IMG/VR virus record: IMGVR_UViG_3300006749_000143
Location: 1 to 23,498 of that record
Source of the DNA: a virus
Length of the DNA: 23,498 nucleotides
Strand: one strand, 5' to 3'
The translations under genes and the position numbers were made by a program. Shown piece after piece: positions 2,775 through 13,188 of the stretch. The notes beneath the pieces were generated by a model that was not told the DNA's origin, ran no database searches, and saw only the letters and a list, made by a program, of their open reading frames with translations. Each line of letters starts with the position of its first letter. The stretch's first letter is position 1.

Positions 2775-2921
2775 ATGAAAAAAGGTATAGGTCCAAACAA
2801 CTTAGGAGCTCCAAAGTCTCCCACAAAAATACTAGGTGCAATTGCAGGCGCAGTTGCTCCAGCATTAATTAAAGGCGCTGCCGGCGCATTAGCTGGTAAG
2901 CTTATGGGTGGTAAAAAATAA
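2775..2921 (+). CDS. 48-aa Gly/Ala-rich membrane-active-type small protein
   Basis: This short frame begins ATG one base after the preceding stop and ends in TAATG, sharing one base with the next start, which supports its being real. The protein has a basic N-terminus (MKKGIGPNNLGAPKSPTK) followed by a hydrophobic Gly/Ala segment of about 28 residues (residues 20-47: ILGAIAGAVAPALIKGAAGA and onwards) ending in GGKK. The repeated small residues at 3-4 spacing resemble a glycine zipper, seen in membrane-inserting or oligomerising peptides. The motif KSPTK (14-18) and the GIGPNNLGAP start echo the downstream 113-aa protein (GVGPSCLGSP). A minor virion protein or membrane-penetrating peptide is possible; no function is established. 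Confidence 0.65.
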   Translation: MKKGIGPNNLGAPKSPTKILGAIAGAVAPALIKGAAGALAGKLMGGKK

Positions 2922-3301
2922 TGGCACTTAAATTAAAAACACCAGGTGAATTATTCGGATTTAACGACGAGTTATCCAGATTTGGCAGACCTGTTTTTGA
3001 AAAAGATTTAGATTCTAACGTTATAGCAGAAGCTAATCGTGATGGAACTACTTTTGTTGATAAAAAAGCCTCTAAAAAGCAAAAAGCTGATTCGATAGCC
3101 CATGAAGATGAGCATCATGATCAGATGCTGCAGGGGCAGTTATCATATACAGATGACAGTGTAACTTGGAAAAAAGATACAAAGTCGCCAGCAAGAGTAT
3201 ATACTAGATTAGATAATGGTATGATAGAAGCTGCTGGTAAAAAAGTAAAAGAAGGAGCACACGGTTTTCCTTGGGAAGCTGATGCTTATAAAAATTCATA
3301 A
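2921..3301 (+). CDS. Putative zincin-type metallopeptidase-like protein, 126 aa
   Basis: The sequence contains SIAHEDEHHDQM, in which H61-E62-x-x-H65 is a textbook HExxH zinc-binding and catalytic motif, followed about 53 residues later by FPWEADAY, where Glu119 could be the third metal ligand (gluzincin-like). Between them is QGQLSYTDDSVTWKK, a pattern I recall from short phage proteins of this type, in which HExxH, a GxLxY stretch and a PWExEAY end occur together. The N-terminal 40 residues resemble a polar extension. It has no signal peptide or membrane segment. Its position among small virion-like genes suggests prohead maturation, virion entry or lysis, but substrate and activity are unknown. 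The alternative is a non-catalytic protein with a chance HExxH. Confidence 0.6.
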   Translation: MALKLKTPGELFGFNDELSRFGRPVFEKDLDSNVIAEANRDGTTFVDKKASKKQKADSIAHEDEHHDQMLQGQLSYTDDSVTWKKDTKSPARVYTRLDNGMIEAAGKKVKEGAHGFPWEADAYKNS

Positions 3302-3302
3302 T

Positions 3303-3605
3303 ATGTACAAAGCAACACCGATAACTAAAAAAGCTTGCAGTTCGCCTGCAAAGATGAATGAAGCATTAGTATATGGCGAAGCAGATGCTGCTGACAAATT
3401 TTTAGATGTTGGCGGAACTGTTAAATCTGCTATAGATAAAGAAGAGGGGCAACAATCTGGCAGCGCTGGTAGTGTTGCAGCTCCACCTGAAGATGGAAAA
3501 TCTGCCGCTGACAAAATAAAAGATATGTCAGACAAATTTGACCCTGAAAAATTTAAACTAAACTTTGATACGAGTAAAATCCCAACGGACTTATTCAATT
3601 TATAA
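3303..3605 (+). CDS. Small disordered-looking protein with SPAK motif, 100 aa
   Basis: I take the ATG at 3303, just after the preceding stop (taATATGtac), rather than the non-ATG start seven codons upstream that would overlap it. The protein begins MYKATPITKKACSSPAKMNE, then continues into a polar, low-complexity stretch rich in Gly, Ser, Ala, Asp and Lys (residues 40-75) and ends in a hydrophobic KIPTDLFNL. There is no membrane segment. The SPAK motif at 14-17 links it to its neighbours. The phrase GEADAADKFLDVGGTVKSA resembles VREPMLDVGSVAKQAKED near the start of the next protein, suggesting the two share an N-terminal module. Function unknown. Confidence 0.7.
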   Translation: MYKATPITKKACSSPAKMNEALVYGEADAADKFLDVGGTVKSAIDKEEGQQSGSAGSVAAPPEDGKSAADKIKDMSDKFDPEKFKLNFDTSKIPTDLFNL

Positions 3606-3615
3606 AACTAACATC

Positions 3616-4812
3616 ATGAACAAACCAATAACAACAAGAGTAAATCAGTCGTCCTCAATGGGCATGAAAGTTAGAGAACCGATGTTAGATGTTGGTTCTG
3701 TAGCTAAGCAAGCAAAAGAAGATGCTAATAAAATAGAAAAAGTAGAAGGATATTCACTTGGCCAGGACGGCTCTGTCCAGTATGGAAATACAACTACAAC
3801 AACTACAGGTGGCACGCCCGATAAAACTGTTAAAACAAATTTAACAGACCGAGATGTTTGGGATACAAATAGAAAAAATGTGAAAAGTAAATACACTACA
3901 TTTGAAGATTATCAAAAAGCTGCGCAAAAATATAGAAACGAAACTGCAAACTTTACGCCTGATACAAAAACTACTATCGTAAAAGGAACTGATCCTGTAT
4001 CAACTACTTCTAGTAATGTAGAAAGCTTAAAAAAGAAAACAATGGGTAACTACGTTGCTCCTTGGACTTTAAGACAAGATATTAGAGGCGATAAAATTGC
4101 TAAAAATAAAGCGCAAAGACAAAAGCTTAAAACAATGCGTCAGTCAGGCGAGCTTGGTGACACTGCAGGTAAGCAATTTGGTGATGCTCTTAAAAAGAAA
4201 AAAACAGCTAATGTAGACGCAAGAGCTGATAAAAAGCAAGCAAGAAAAGATAAGCGTCAAGCAATGAAAGACCTTAGAGGCAAGAAAGGTGATATGACTG
4301 ATGCTGAATTCAAAGCTGCTAAAGGCCAAATTAAATCAGACAAGTCTGCTAAAATGGACGAAGCTAACAAAACAATTAAATCTAACAGAAAGCAATTTAA
4401 AGAAGATGTTGGTAATATAAAAAGCAGGAAAGAAAAGAAAAAAGAAGTTAAACAGGAGTATAACAAAAAATTAAGTGAAGCTCTTGACGCTAAATTTGAT
4501 ACAAGAGTAAAAGGCTCTCAACAAGGCGCTACGCATACTAACAAAGATCAAAAAGTTGAAATAGGAACTAAAAATATGGATCTTTCTGATTTTTCACCAG
4601 AAAAACAAAAAGAAATAATCGGAGGTTCAAGTCCAGCAAACAAACTAAAATCCCCATATAAAATGTATACAAAATCACCATTTAAAATGTCTGCTAAGTC
4701 GCCATTGACAAAAGCATTAGTTGGTAACCAAAACAAATTGCCACAGCATTTGCAAGACGCGATTAAAGCAGCACCAGGAAAAAACTATAAAAAAGGATAT
4801 TACGGAAAATAA
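3616..4812 (+). CDS. Lysine-rich coiled-coil protein with C-terminal SP-x-K repeats, 398 aa
   Basis: The start chosen is ATG 3616 (MNKPITTRVNQ), after the preceding stop, because the longer frame would extend into the previous gene. The protein is very rich in Lys, Asp, Gln and Thr. Residues from about 165 to 300 are strongly charged and heptad-like (KQARKDKRQAMKDLRGKKGD and onwards), suggesting long helices or coiled coil. Near the C-terminus four Ser-Pro motifs occur at residues 339, 346, 354 and 362 (SPANK, SPYK, SPFK, SPLTK), spaced 7-8 residues, followed by KALVGNQNKLPQHLQDAIKA, a tail that I recall from uncultured marine phage proteins. No enzyme motif or membrane segment is visible. 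A virion-internal or DNA-associated role is plausible from composition and context only. Confidence 0.75.
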   Translation: MNKPITTRVNQSSSMGMKVREPMLDVGSVAKQAKEDANKIEKVEGYSLGQDGSVQYGNTTTTTTGGTPDKTVKTNLTDRDVWDTNRKNVKSKYTTFEDYQKAAQKYRNETANFTPDTKTTIVKGTDPVSTTSSNVESLKKKTMGNYVAPWTLRQDIRGDKIAKNKAQRQKLKTMRQSGELGDTAGKQFGDALKKKKTANVDARADKKQARKDKRQAMKDLRGKKGDMTDAEFKAAKGQIKSDKSAKMDEANKTIKSNRKQFKEDVGNIKSRKEKKKEVKQEYNKKLSEALDAKFDTRVKGSQQGATHTNKDQKVEIGTKNMDLSDFSPEKQKEIIGGSSPANKLKSPYKMYTKSPFKMSAKSPLTKALVGNQNKLPQHLQDAIKAAPGKNYKKGYYGK

Positions 4813-4813
4813 T

Positions 4814-5155
4814 ATGGATACGCCATTTAAAAGAAAAGGTGTAGGTCCAAGTTGTTTAGGCTCACCTGTAAAGAAAAAAGGCGACGCGCCTTCTCGTAAA
4901 AAATCTAAAGGATATTATAACGAAGCAAAGTCAACCGGTACAGGTGCGGCTGCAGGTGGCGGTATGTCACAAAAAGGCGTAGATAAATATAAAAGAGATA
5001 ATCCGGGTAGTAAGCTACAAACAGCAGTAACAAAAGACCCATCTAAATTAAAGCCGGGTAGTAAAGCCGCTAAAAGAAGAAAATCATTTTGTGCAAGATC
5101 AAAAAGTTGGACATCTGAAAGAGGCAGAGCCGCAAGACGAAGATGGAATTGTTAG
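4814..5155 (+). CDS. Basic conserved phage protein (DUF6321-like), 113 aa
   Basis: ATG 4814 follows the previous stop by one base; the longer frame upstream would overlap it heavily. The C-terminal half is the recognisable part: GGGMSQKGVDKYKRDNPGSK, then KPGSKAAKRRKSFCARSKSW and a GRAARRRWNC end (Cys93 and Cys113). This pattern (K-R-R-K-S-F-C-A-R ... R-x-W-N-C) occurs in small basic proteins of many marine phages including cyanophages, which I believe correspond to DUF6321; the label is from memory. The N-terminus MDTPFKRKGVGPSCLGSPVK adds a TPFK and an SPVK motif. The high charge suggests nucleic-acid or virion-interior association. Its 3' end overlaps the next small gene by 13 bases. Confidence 0.75.
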   Translation: MDTPFKRKGVGPSCLGSPVKKKGDAPSRKKSKGYYNEAKSTGTGAAAGGGMSQKGVDKYKRDNPGSKLQTAVTKDPSKLKPGSKAAKRRKSFCARSKSWTSERGRAARRRWNC

Positions 5156-5277
5156 AGCATTTAACCGGCATGTGTGGAGAATCTCATATAAATTTATTCC
5201 ACATTTTAATAATCAGTTTAATTTTTTTAAGTTATGGAATCACAAGGATTAGGAGACACTATAGAAAAGTTTACTAA
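5143..5277 (+). CDS. 44-aa single-TM small protein (LTGxCGExHxNL type)
   Basis: This short frame starts at ATG 5143 inside the end of the preceding gene (13-base overlap) and ends inside the following 49-aa gene (44-base overlap). The product begins MELLEHLTGMCGESHINLFH, continues as a hydrophobic helix (residues 16-33, ILIISLIFLSYGI) and ends in a basic tail (RIRRHYRKVY), giving an N-out or N-in single-pass membrane protein with positive-inside character. I recall very similar tiny phage proteins with LTGxCGExHxN followed by a hydrophobic segment. The coding of this helix also explains the T-rich tract at 5220-5228, which otherwise looks non-coding. Proximity to a holin-like gene suggests a lysis or membrane role, which is an inference. 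Confidence 0.65.
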   Translation: MELLEHLTGMCGESHINLFHILIISLIFLSYGITRIRRHYRKVY

Positions 5278-5383
5278 GGCAACTGGAATTAAAAAGTTAG
5301 CTGATAAGATACCGGGCGGTTGTGGGTGTCAAAAAAGAAAACAAGCTTTAAATAAAATGTTTCCTTATGAGTCAAAAAAATAA
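5234..5383 (+). CDS. 49-aa Cys-containing conserved small phage protein
   Basis: The frame ATG 5234 to TAA 5383 encodes MESQGLGDTIEKFTKATGIK, then KLADKIPGGCGCQKRKQALN and KMFPY near the end. The pattern GLGDTIEKxTKATGIK ... CGCxxRKxxLNxxFPY is one I recall from small proteins in Bacteroidota phages, encoded near structural and lysis genes. Cys30 and Cys32 in a CGC pair could bind metal or form a disulfide; the N-terminal part should be an amphipathic helix. It overlaps the upstream 44-aa gene by 44 bases and the downstream holin-like gene by 17 bases. The upstream sequence has no Shine-Dalgarno. Function unknown. Confidence 0.75.
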   Translation: MESQGLGDTIEKFTKATGIKKLADKIPGGCGCQKRKQALNKMFPYESKK

Positions 5384-6290: not shown

Positions 6291-6486
6291 TATCGGCAAA
6301 GACTATAAAAATGACGCCATGCATTACTCTGTTGGTCAAGAAGTGTATGGCGGACATATTATAGATAGTATTATTGAGGAAGAGCATAAGTACTCAATAT
6401 ATATTAAGAAAGGTACAGATGTTATACCTTGGAAAGACTTTAATAAAAACATGGCTATCGCAATAGAATATAATTTAGAATACTAA
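6268..6486 (+). CDS. Small hypothetical beta-rich protein, 72 aa
   Basis: The start at 6268 overlaps the preceding coiled-coil gene by 23 bases and the stop shares one base with the next start (TAATG). The protein MSLLRKISIGKDYKNDAMHY continues with VGQEVYGGHIIDSIIEEEHK, YSIYIKKGTDVIPWKDF and ends AIAIEYNLEY, an alternating hydrophobic pattern suggesting a small beta barrel or sandwich. From memory similar proteins appear next to terminase genes in flavophages, but no function is known to me. Confidence 0.7.
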   Translation: MSLLRKISIGKDYKNDAMHYSVGQEVYGGHIIDSIIEEEHKYSIYIKKGTDVIPWKDFNKNMAIAIEYNLEY

Positions 6487-7058
6487 TGCGGGGTTTGTTT
6501 GACTTTGTTATAAGACCATACGATAAGGCTTATAGCAACGAAAAACAAATTGGTGATAAAACTTTAATATTAAATACAGATAAATCAGACCATAATTTTG
6601 TGTCAAGGGTTGGAGTTGTTGAATATACTCCTGCTTATAATGCAATGGGTATTGAGTTTGGTGATGAAGTAATTGTGCATCATAATGTTTTTCGTAGATT
6701 TAATGATATTAGAGGCGAAGAAAAAAGAAGTCGTAATTGGTATAGAGACGATTTATATATAGTGCCTGTTGAACAAATATATGCTTATAAAAGAATAACA
6801 CAATGGAACGCGCTTCCTGGTTATAACTTTATAAAACCAATAAAAGACAATGAGCTTGTTGGTGAAGTGGTATATAAAGACCCTTATTTTAAAGCTGGTA
6901 AAGTTGGCGATGTAGTAGGGTTTAAGCCAAATAGAGAATACGAATTTAATATAGATAACGAGGTATTATATAGAGTTCCTACAAATTCAATTACAATTAA
7001 ATATGAACATCAAGGAGAAAAAGAGGAATATAATAAAAGCTGGCTACAAAGCGGTTGA
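6486..7058 (+). CDS. Putative tandem GroES-like barrel protein, 190 aa
   Basis: Two successive segments have the strand and turn order of the Cpn10 barrel. Copy 1 (about 25-103) has RVGVVEYTP, GIEFGDEVIVHHNVFR with the GD turn at 59-60, then DDLYIVPVEQIYAYKR. Copy 2 (about 114-174) has FIKPI, LVGEVVY, KVGDVVGFKPNREYEFNID with GD at 141-142, then EVLYRVPTNSITIKYE. Both end in the [L]Y-x-V-x-x-x-x-I strand typical of GroES (VLIMSESDILAIV in E. coli). Neither has a clear GGIxL mobile loop. A protein with two linked Cpn10 domains is known in chloroplasts (Cpn20), so a two-barrel co-chaperonin for the phage GroEL is one reading; a repurposed virion barrel is another. The fold assignment is by eye. 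It begins on a TAATG overlap. Confidence 0.5.
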   Translation: MRGLFDFVIRPYDKAYSNEKQIGDKTLILNTDKSDHNFVSRVGVVEYTPAYNAMGIEFGDEVIVHHNVFRRFNDIRGEEKRSRNWYRDDLYIVPVEQIYAYKRITQWNALPGYNFIKPIKDNELVGEVVYKDPYFKAGKVGDVVGFKPNREYEFNIDNEVLYRVPTNSITIKYEHQGEKEEYNKSWLQSG

Positions 7059-11946: not shown

Positions 11947-13188
11947 ATGTCAGAAAAACAAGAAGAAGTTCTTGAAACTCAAGTTGAGGGACAAGAGCAA
12001 ACTGAACAACCAGTTGAAGAACCAAAACCAGACACGGGTGCTTCGGTAGCCGAAGACGGTACGATTAAATTAGATTTAGGTAAACTTAATAAACCGCAAG
12101 AAGATGCCATTCAAGAACAAAGCGCAGATGACAGCGATGATACTGTCGGACAATCCGAAGACTCGCAAGACAGCGAAGAAGTGGCTGAAGAAGTACGGGA
12201 CACCAGCAAAGATGAGCCCGTTCAAAATGAAGAAACCATATTAGAAGAGGTAACTGATGAAGCAGATAACCCTGACGAGGCAGGAGTGGATGGAAGCACT
12301 GAAGCTACCGACTCCGCACCGGAACAAGAAGAAATACAACCGCAAACAGAAACACAAGTTGAATTACCCGAAGGATTAGAAAAGGTAGTTGAATTTATGA
12401 ATGAAACAGGCGGTGATTTGAATGACTATGTAAAATTAAATACAGATTATTCAAAGTTAAATGAAGCGCAGTTAATTCGCGAATATTACGAAACAACTAA
12501 ACCTCATTTAGATGCAGAAGATATTAATCTTTTAATGGAAGACTTTAGCTATGACGAAGAAGTCGATGAGCCAAAGCAAATTCGTAAAGCAAAGATTGCT
12601 TTTAAAGAAGAAGCCGCAAAGGCTAAAAACCATTTAGAAGGTTTAAAAAATAAATACTATAATGAAATTAAAGCTGGGTCGAAGCTAACGCCGAACCAGC
12701 AAAAAGCGGTTGACTTTTTTAATAGGTACAACCAAGAAAACGAACAAGCTACTAAGGTAGCTGAAAGACAGCAGCAAGTATTTTTAAATCAAACCAATCA
12801 AGTGTTCGACAAAAATTTCAAAGGTTTTGAATATGCAGTTGGCGACAAAAAGTATAGGTTTAATGTAAAAAATACGGATACTGTTAAGGAAACTCAGAGT
12901 GATATTAATAATTTTGTTAAGATGTTCTTAGATAAAAATAATACAATGTCAGATGCTCGCGGTTACCACAAGTCTTTATTTACGGCGATGAATGCAGATC
13001 AAATTGCAAATCATTTTTATCAACAAGGTAAAGCTGATGCAATGAAGGATAGCGTTGCGAAAGCTAAAAATGTCGATATGAGCCCAAGAGCGGTTCATGA
13101 AACAAAAGCGGCAAATGGCTGGACTGTTAGAGCTGTCCCTTCAGATACTACATTCGGATCCAAACTTAAAATAAAAACTAGAAAATAA
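11947..13188 (+). CDS. Acidic scaffolding protein, 413 aa
   Basis: Scaffolds template procapsid assembly and leave before DNA fills the head. The first 140 residues are very acidic and look disordered, rich in Glu, Asp, Gln and Ser (for example DSDDTVGQSEDSQDSEEVAE). The rest is mostly helical with a basic, helical middle (KQIRKAKIAFKEEAAKAKNH) and a globular-looking C-terminus ending ANGWTVRAVPSDTTFGSKLK. Size, composition and position between portal and capsid genes are those of a scaffold. The acidic segment is encoded by DNA with more G+C than its surroundings (137 of 300 bases from 12001 to 12300 by hand count). No protease domain is visible. Confidence 0.8.
   Translation: MSEKQEEVLETQVEGQEQTEQPVEEPKPDTGASVAEDGTIKLDLGKLNKPQEDAIQEQSADDSDDTVGQSEDSQDSEEVAEEVRDTSKDEPVQNEETILEEVTDEADNPDEAGVDGSTEATDSAPEQEEIQPQTETQVELPEGLEKVVEFMNETGGDLNDYVKLNTDYSKLNEAQLIREYYETTKPHLDAEDINLLMEDFSYDEEVDEPKQIRKAKIAFKEEAAKAKNHLEGLKNKYYNEIKAGSKLTPNQQKAVDFFNRYNQENEQATKVAERQQQVFLNQTNQVFDKNFKGFEYAVGDKKYRFNVKNTDTVKETQSDINNFVKMFLDKNNTMSDARGYHKSLFTAMNADQIANHFYQQGKADAMKDSVAKAKNVDMSPRAVHETKAANGWTVRAVPSDTTFGSKLKIKTRK

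Follow-up and report, generated by a model that had tools for sequence, protein, structure and literature searches.

The SP-x-K motifs encoded by five consecutive genes of a marine podovirus-like phage appear to be the core of a few interchangeable terminal peptide modules, carried by late, small and basic accessory proteins. The pattern is non-random and, across the sequences compared, a real one that extends clade-wide in patches. We suggest that the modules may be docking peptides that recruit their carriers for joint packaging or assembly, a reading that we consider quite possible, if short of probable. The window (the whole stretch of DNA analysed, 23.5 kb) is a linear IMG/VR record and a fragment of a podovirus-like genome with a GC content of 30-40%. 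Its gene order runs from GroEL- and GroES-like genes through a conserved 146-aa protein, the SP-x-K block, a holin (matching phrog_3427), the terminase and the portal to a 413-aa scaffold-like protein and the capsid and tail genes. The terminase and portal matched those of Flavobacterium, Cellulophaga, Tenacibaculum and Maribacter phages and of the uncultured spring phage MW202828, and the terminase, the portal and the order of structural genes were homologous with those of Flavobacterium, Cellulophaga and Tenacibaculum podoviruses. Judging from these phage relatives, we infer that the host is a marine member of Bacteroidota. Window-like DNA was absent from the phage collection at megablast level. 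Besides the GroEL-like and GroES-like genes (536-2336), the window encodes, immediately 5' of the terminase genes, a 190-aa protein (6486-7058), the positional counterparts of which are annotated as cpn10 in Cellulophaga and Flavobacterium phages.

All five open reading frames of the block are real and, as the earlier note had it, encode KSPTK, KSPAR, SSPAK, SPANK, SPYK, SPFK and SPLTK (the last four at residues 339, 346, 354 and 362 of the 398-aa protein), together with TPFK at residue 3 and SPVK at residue 17 of the 113-aa protein; most are SP-x-K motifs as claimed, but SPANK and SPLTK have the form SPxxK. The 48-aa small protein (2775..2921, + strand) bears the N-terminal tag GIGPNNLGAPKSPTK at approximately 2784-2828, and most of its 15 homologues have K[ST]P[TASN]K in register, with SMAK, SAAK or AMAK in its place in some. 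A glycine/alanine-rich hydrophobic stretch (ILGAIAGAVAPALIKGAAGALAGKLM), possibly membrane-active, follows the tag in this protein. The 126-aa protein (2921..3301, + strand) is a minigluzincin-like metalloprotease with an HExxH motif at residues 61-65 and a glutamate at position 119. Its KSPAR (SPAR at 3185-3196) sits in the folded metalloprotease domain and is not a tag; this product is the misfit among the five. The 100-aa protein (3303..3605, + strand) carries the N-terminal tag PITKKACSSPAKMN, with SPAK at 3342-3353; PIT was found near the N terminus in 21 of its 27 homologues, and PIT..SP.K in 18 of the 27. The lysine-rich 398-aa protein (3616..4812, + strand), for which the evidence includes KNYKKGYYG and ALIGKQ scans, has an N-terminal NKPITTR module and, from approximately 4630, a C-terminal tag array (SPANK..SPYKM..SPFKM..KSPLTKALVGNQNKLPQHLQDAIKAAPGKNYKKGYYGK). 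The last of the five, the 113-aa protein (4814..5155, + strand), belongs to DUF6321 (PF19846; 39.4 bits against a Pfam gathering threshold of 28.5) and has the N-terminal tag TPFKRKGVGPSCLGSPVKK, with TPFK at 4820-4831 and SPVK at 4862-4873. It does share GxGPxxLGxP with the 48-aa protein, and the products are in general otherwise unlike each other, as described, except that the 100- and 398-aa proteins both have an N-terminal PITxR/PITxK module. Beyond the block, the 49-aa 'GLGDTIEKFTKATGIK' protein (5234..5383, + strand) is without a tag in the window, and its orthologue in record G018 starts with MAFKMKHRGFGDT. The motif is not explained by Ser/Pro/Lys composition, the chance origin that the earlier note had allowed for: the five proteins contain 6 SP.K sites where within-protein shuffling predicts 0.42, and 9 [ST]P.[KR] sites where it predicts 1.01, and none of 20,000 shuffles attained either total.

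The enrichment over related phages, proposed as a check in the earlier note, was also recovered. Raw k-mer counts were dominated by homologous proteins and were replaced by a family-weighted de novo scan, in which the proteins from the loci compared were sorted into 190 families of equal weight. This unbiased scan placed FKM (15.6 vs 2.1), SP.K (23.2 vs 8.2), P.KM (10.3 vs 2.3) and P.KQ (13.6 vs 4.3) at the top, with M.FK and SPL also among the most over-represented patterns. Profiled by position, 248 distinct SP.K sites had K at -1 and -2, a preference at the x position for A (4.9x), F (3.4x) and M (3.2x), and Q, M or K after the lysine, giving the consensus K-S-P-[A/F/M]-K-[Q/M/K]. The stricter form SP-[small/hydrophobic]-K-[MQK] occurred, over 11 long records, 17 times against 2.0 expected on the late strand, defined as the strand with the terminase, and 0 times against 0.5 on the other strand. 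SP[KR][KR]-type sites were not enriched on the late strand (8 observed, 10.3 expected). Tagged late small proteins had a median net charge per residue of 0.096, versus 0.0 for untagged ones (p=1e-6).

The recurrent modules are KGxGPxxLG..SPxK, PITxK..SSPxKM, MxFKMK, AYxQNSPFKK, KSPxxKALxGxQxNLPxxLKxKI and SPAKNYKKGYYG, with tag sequences that include SSPAKMN, KSPFKMSAK and SPAKNYKKGYYGK, and their carriers are small, basic, late-strand proteins. Module turnover is fast, and the proline is often lost (SAVK, SMAK, SCAKN). Across 46 DUF6321 homologues, the domain remained intact and was joined to at least five different N-terminal modules or to none, with an SP-motif near the N terminus in 26. 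No other observation speaks as strongly for a functional equivalence of the modules as this exchange among DUF6321 orthologues. The common short tag suggested earlier is thus upheld, in the form of exchangeable and clade-specific modules on small late proteins. However, the loss of the motif from homologues that keep the rest of the protein, which had been named as an argument against it, was encountered in part: the motif was absent in 20 of the 46 DUF6321 homologues, and some near relatives had almost no SPxK. Four records (G007, G009, G010 and G012) had only 0-1 small late proteins with SPxK, and some of these records bore PITxR or KNYKNGYYG modules. The tags are therefore patchy, and this argues that they are non-essential.

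Across the sequences surveyed, only phages of this terminase lineage carry the modules. A scan with the ALxGxQ module yielded 57 loci, and 43 of the 44 newly reached records had a terminase 67-83% identical to that of the window; with the KNYKKGYYG module, 59 loci were reached and nearly all had this terminase. A query made of the tag alone found nothing in annotated phages, its sole match having an E value of 6. The cargo domains found elsewhere occur in other phages without the tag: the DUF6321 domain is present in Synechococcus and Pelagibacter phages, and SPxK was absent from the DUF6321 copies read in cyanophages and pelagiphages. Four loci without any window proteins (L182, L184, L217 and L218) had seemed to come from a different tag-bearing phage, but the idea of an unrelated lineage was dropped because the full L182 record encodes the terminase and portal of this clade, and its neighbouring tagged genes recur in L184 and L217.

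Two further motif-bearing genes lie within the gene for the 413-aa scaffold-like protein (11947..13188, + strand), which was assigned from its conservation and its position between the portal and major capsid protein genes. Nested gene A (46 aa; 12104..12244, + strand, +1 frame) ends with TPAKMSPFKMKKPY and is kept in 16 distinct relatives, and nested gene B (40 aa; 12257..12379, + strand, +1 frame) has a TPHR/SPHK-type motif and is kept in 15, so that both bear a motif of the SP-x-K type. In the overlaps, the nested products were more conserved than the outer one (identities of 65% vs 54% for A and 68% vs 54% for B), and the third codon position of the outer gene, the fastest in the non-overlapping control region, was the slowest in the overlap. 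Homologues of gene A matched phrog_1375 (E=2e-5), and a homologue of gene B matched DUF7230 (E=2.3e-4, under Pfam's cut-off) and phrog_6310 (E=1.3e-3). Open-frame length was not significant for the nested ORFs when compared with synonymous codon shuffling; the support for them comes from the codon-position pattern and the family matches, on which genes A and B are judged to be under selection in the nested frame.

The links to virion annotations are suggestive, but they are not proof. The family phrog_6437 includes gp80 of Cellulophaga phage phi38:1, an untagged protein labelled 'structural protein' on the basis of similarity notes in its record, and members of this family from the clade studied here are tagged with SPFRK or KGIGPKQLGSPLK (L219, L230). 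The small basic proteins were not found in the available part of a protein-methylation study of phi38:1. Four domains matched parts of one 708-aa cyanophage protein, SSM2_109: DUF6321 (E=2e-9) and the CYHK (E=9e-15), LYTDENP (E=7e-15) and CWSGY (E=3e-4) domains, the last three taken from relatives and not from the window. The LYTDENP protein (L024) is without SPxK, and several other such small proteins are tagged. A shorter protein of phage S-B68, annotated to the cluster of SSM2_109, is labelled structural; T4-GC119 is termed structural in the annotation of one record only and is hypothetical according to PMC3037559. The domains fused in SSM2_109 of Synechococcus phage S-SM2 (L226, 373-2499) are separate small proteins in the clade of the window.

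Taken together, the enrichment, the hydrophobic-x consensus, the exchange of modules, the restriction to the late strand and to one terminase lineage, and the structural family of phi38:1 lead us to a model in which the modules would dock to one common phage component during assembly (the scaffold, the portal or the capsid interior), and the small proteins would thereby be packaged or assembled together. The patchiness of the tags and the tagless state of phi38:1 gp80, labelled structural nonetheless, are counterpoints to this model. The modules might instead dock their carriers to a late intracellular complex outside the virion, such as a lysis or host-takeover hub, and the carriers would then never enter the particle. 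We regard this as unlikely, although it is the alternative that fares best: the block sits between the chaperonin and holin (phrog_3427) genes, more tagged genes adjoin endolysin-like genes where the late region ends, and packaging and cytoplasmic assembly look alike in the present data. On the other hand, the phrog_6437 and cyanophage links lead to virion annotations, and two motif-bearing genes are located inside the scaffold-like gene.

A minimal HExxH...E metalloprotease (2921-3301) is kept at the same position across the clade. Among 53 aligned homologues of the 126-aa protein, selected for HExxH, H61, E62, H65 and E119 were invariant, giving the HExxH motif and the downstream glutamate as third ligand that characterize gluzincins; R96 and G112 were also invariant, and the SPAR as such was not. 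Over the larger set of 110 homologues, SP[ASN][RK] was found in 49, with other residues at the site in more distant ones. The N-terminal MALKLK of the protease is the counterpart of MxFKMK in homologues. The AlphaFold2 model had a pLDDT of 85.7 and placed residues 92-96 in a strand. A profile search matched the Methanocaldococcus jannaschii selecase MJ1213 (E=0.0011), and the top Foldseek matches, selecase and abylysin, were weak (E of at least 0.15 and TM of about 0.3, with only about 50-60 residues aligned). The 126-aa protein is a possible maturation protease. It is conceivable, though improbable, that the modules serve this minigluzincin as sites of recognition or cleavage and that it trims or matures the small proteins, in the manner of T4 gp21 acting on CTS-bearing proteins. 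The selecase-like enzyme is indeed kept at its position clade-wide (HExxH in 93 of 110 homologues), but clade members with few tags have it too, no sign of cleavage came to light, and the modules vary in both sequence and position (N-terminal, internal and C-terminal).

We find it equally doubtful that the modules have no common function and are disordered, lysine-rich tails on small genes that duplicated or recombined recently, copied by recombination and kept neutrally. The quick turnover and patchiness of the modules and the frequent loss of the proline speak for this; however, the enrichment across unrelated families persists after family weighting, and the modules are restricted to late genes and recur at protein termini. 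Least probable of all is the suggestion, in line with the earlier note, that SP-x-K contacts AT-rich DNA in the minor groove, like the SPKK of histones, and that the proteins condense the packaged genome: the carriers are basic and the genome has 30-40% GC, but this histone-like reading is disfavoured because the basic SPKK-type sites show no enrichment, x is A, F or M and is followed by Q, M or K, there are few motif copies per protein, and the tag follows the phage lineage and not AT-rich phages generally.

The tag reading is thus favoured over DNA binding, although its function is not proven. In its fullest form, the docking model would have the modules as address tags read by one lineage-specific assembly component, through which a varying repertoire of small basic effectors would enter the virion, with two of the tagged proteins overprinted in the scaffold gene; we put this forward as a speculative extension that is rather unlikely to hold as a whole. 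Small, basic late genes of unknown function are among the commonest 'dark' genes of marine phages, and a common, swappable tag would provide a sequence handle that predicts which small late proteins work together and perhaps travel in the particle. Provided that the tags are indeed virion-targeting, hundreds of annotations as hypothetical protein would become a testable prediction, and foreign proteins could feasibly be loaded into particles, as has been done with the T4 CTS.

In the open-licence literature, we found no papers on DUF6321 and nothing on point for packaging by SPxK-type or short linear motifs in phages, and the nearest comparisons are with systems known in other contexts. The SPKK motifs of histone H1 and sperm H2B likewise have Ser-Pro followed by a lysine within four residues, but where they have basic residues at x and directly after it (SPKK/SPRK), the motif described here has a hydrophobic or small residue at x, and SP[KR][KR] is not enriched. 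The minigluzincins selecase MJ1213 and abylysin resemble the 126-aa protein as metallopeptidases of about 110-130 aa with HExxH (profile E=0.0011), whereas the structural similarity is weak (Foldseek E above 0.1, TM of about 0.3). The tagged proteins have cargo domains from the DUF6321, DUF5872 and phrog_6437 families, which elsewhere lack the tag or form part of a multidomain protein (cyanophage SSM2_109). The crassviruses are also podoviruses of Bacteroidota with virally encoded cargo, gp45 and gp46 of phi-crAss001 being located in the capsid and tail; these proteins are large, however, and the available part of that report describes no common short tag (PMC10172136). The parallel behind the docking model is the capsid-targeting sequence of T4, a tag by which diverse internal proteins enter the scaffolding core (PMC3012670). 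The parallel drawn here is one of pattern rather than of sequence, and the present system, known from sequence alone, has several exchangeable modules, also at C termini, rather than one. Nevertheless, both consist of short conserved peptides on diverse late proteins, many of which are small and basic (PMC3012670), and the modules described here would act in a similar manner, as a conserved short tag on diverse cargo.
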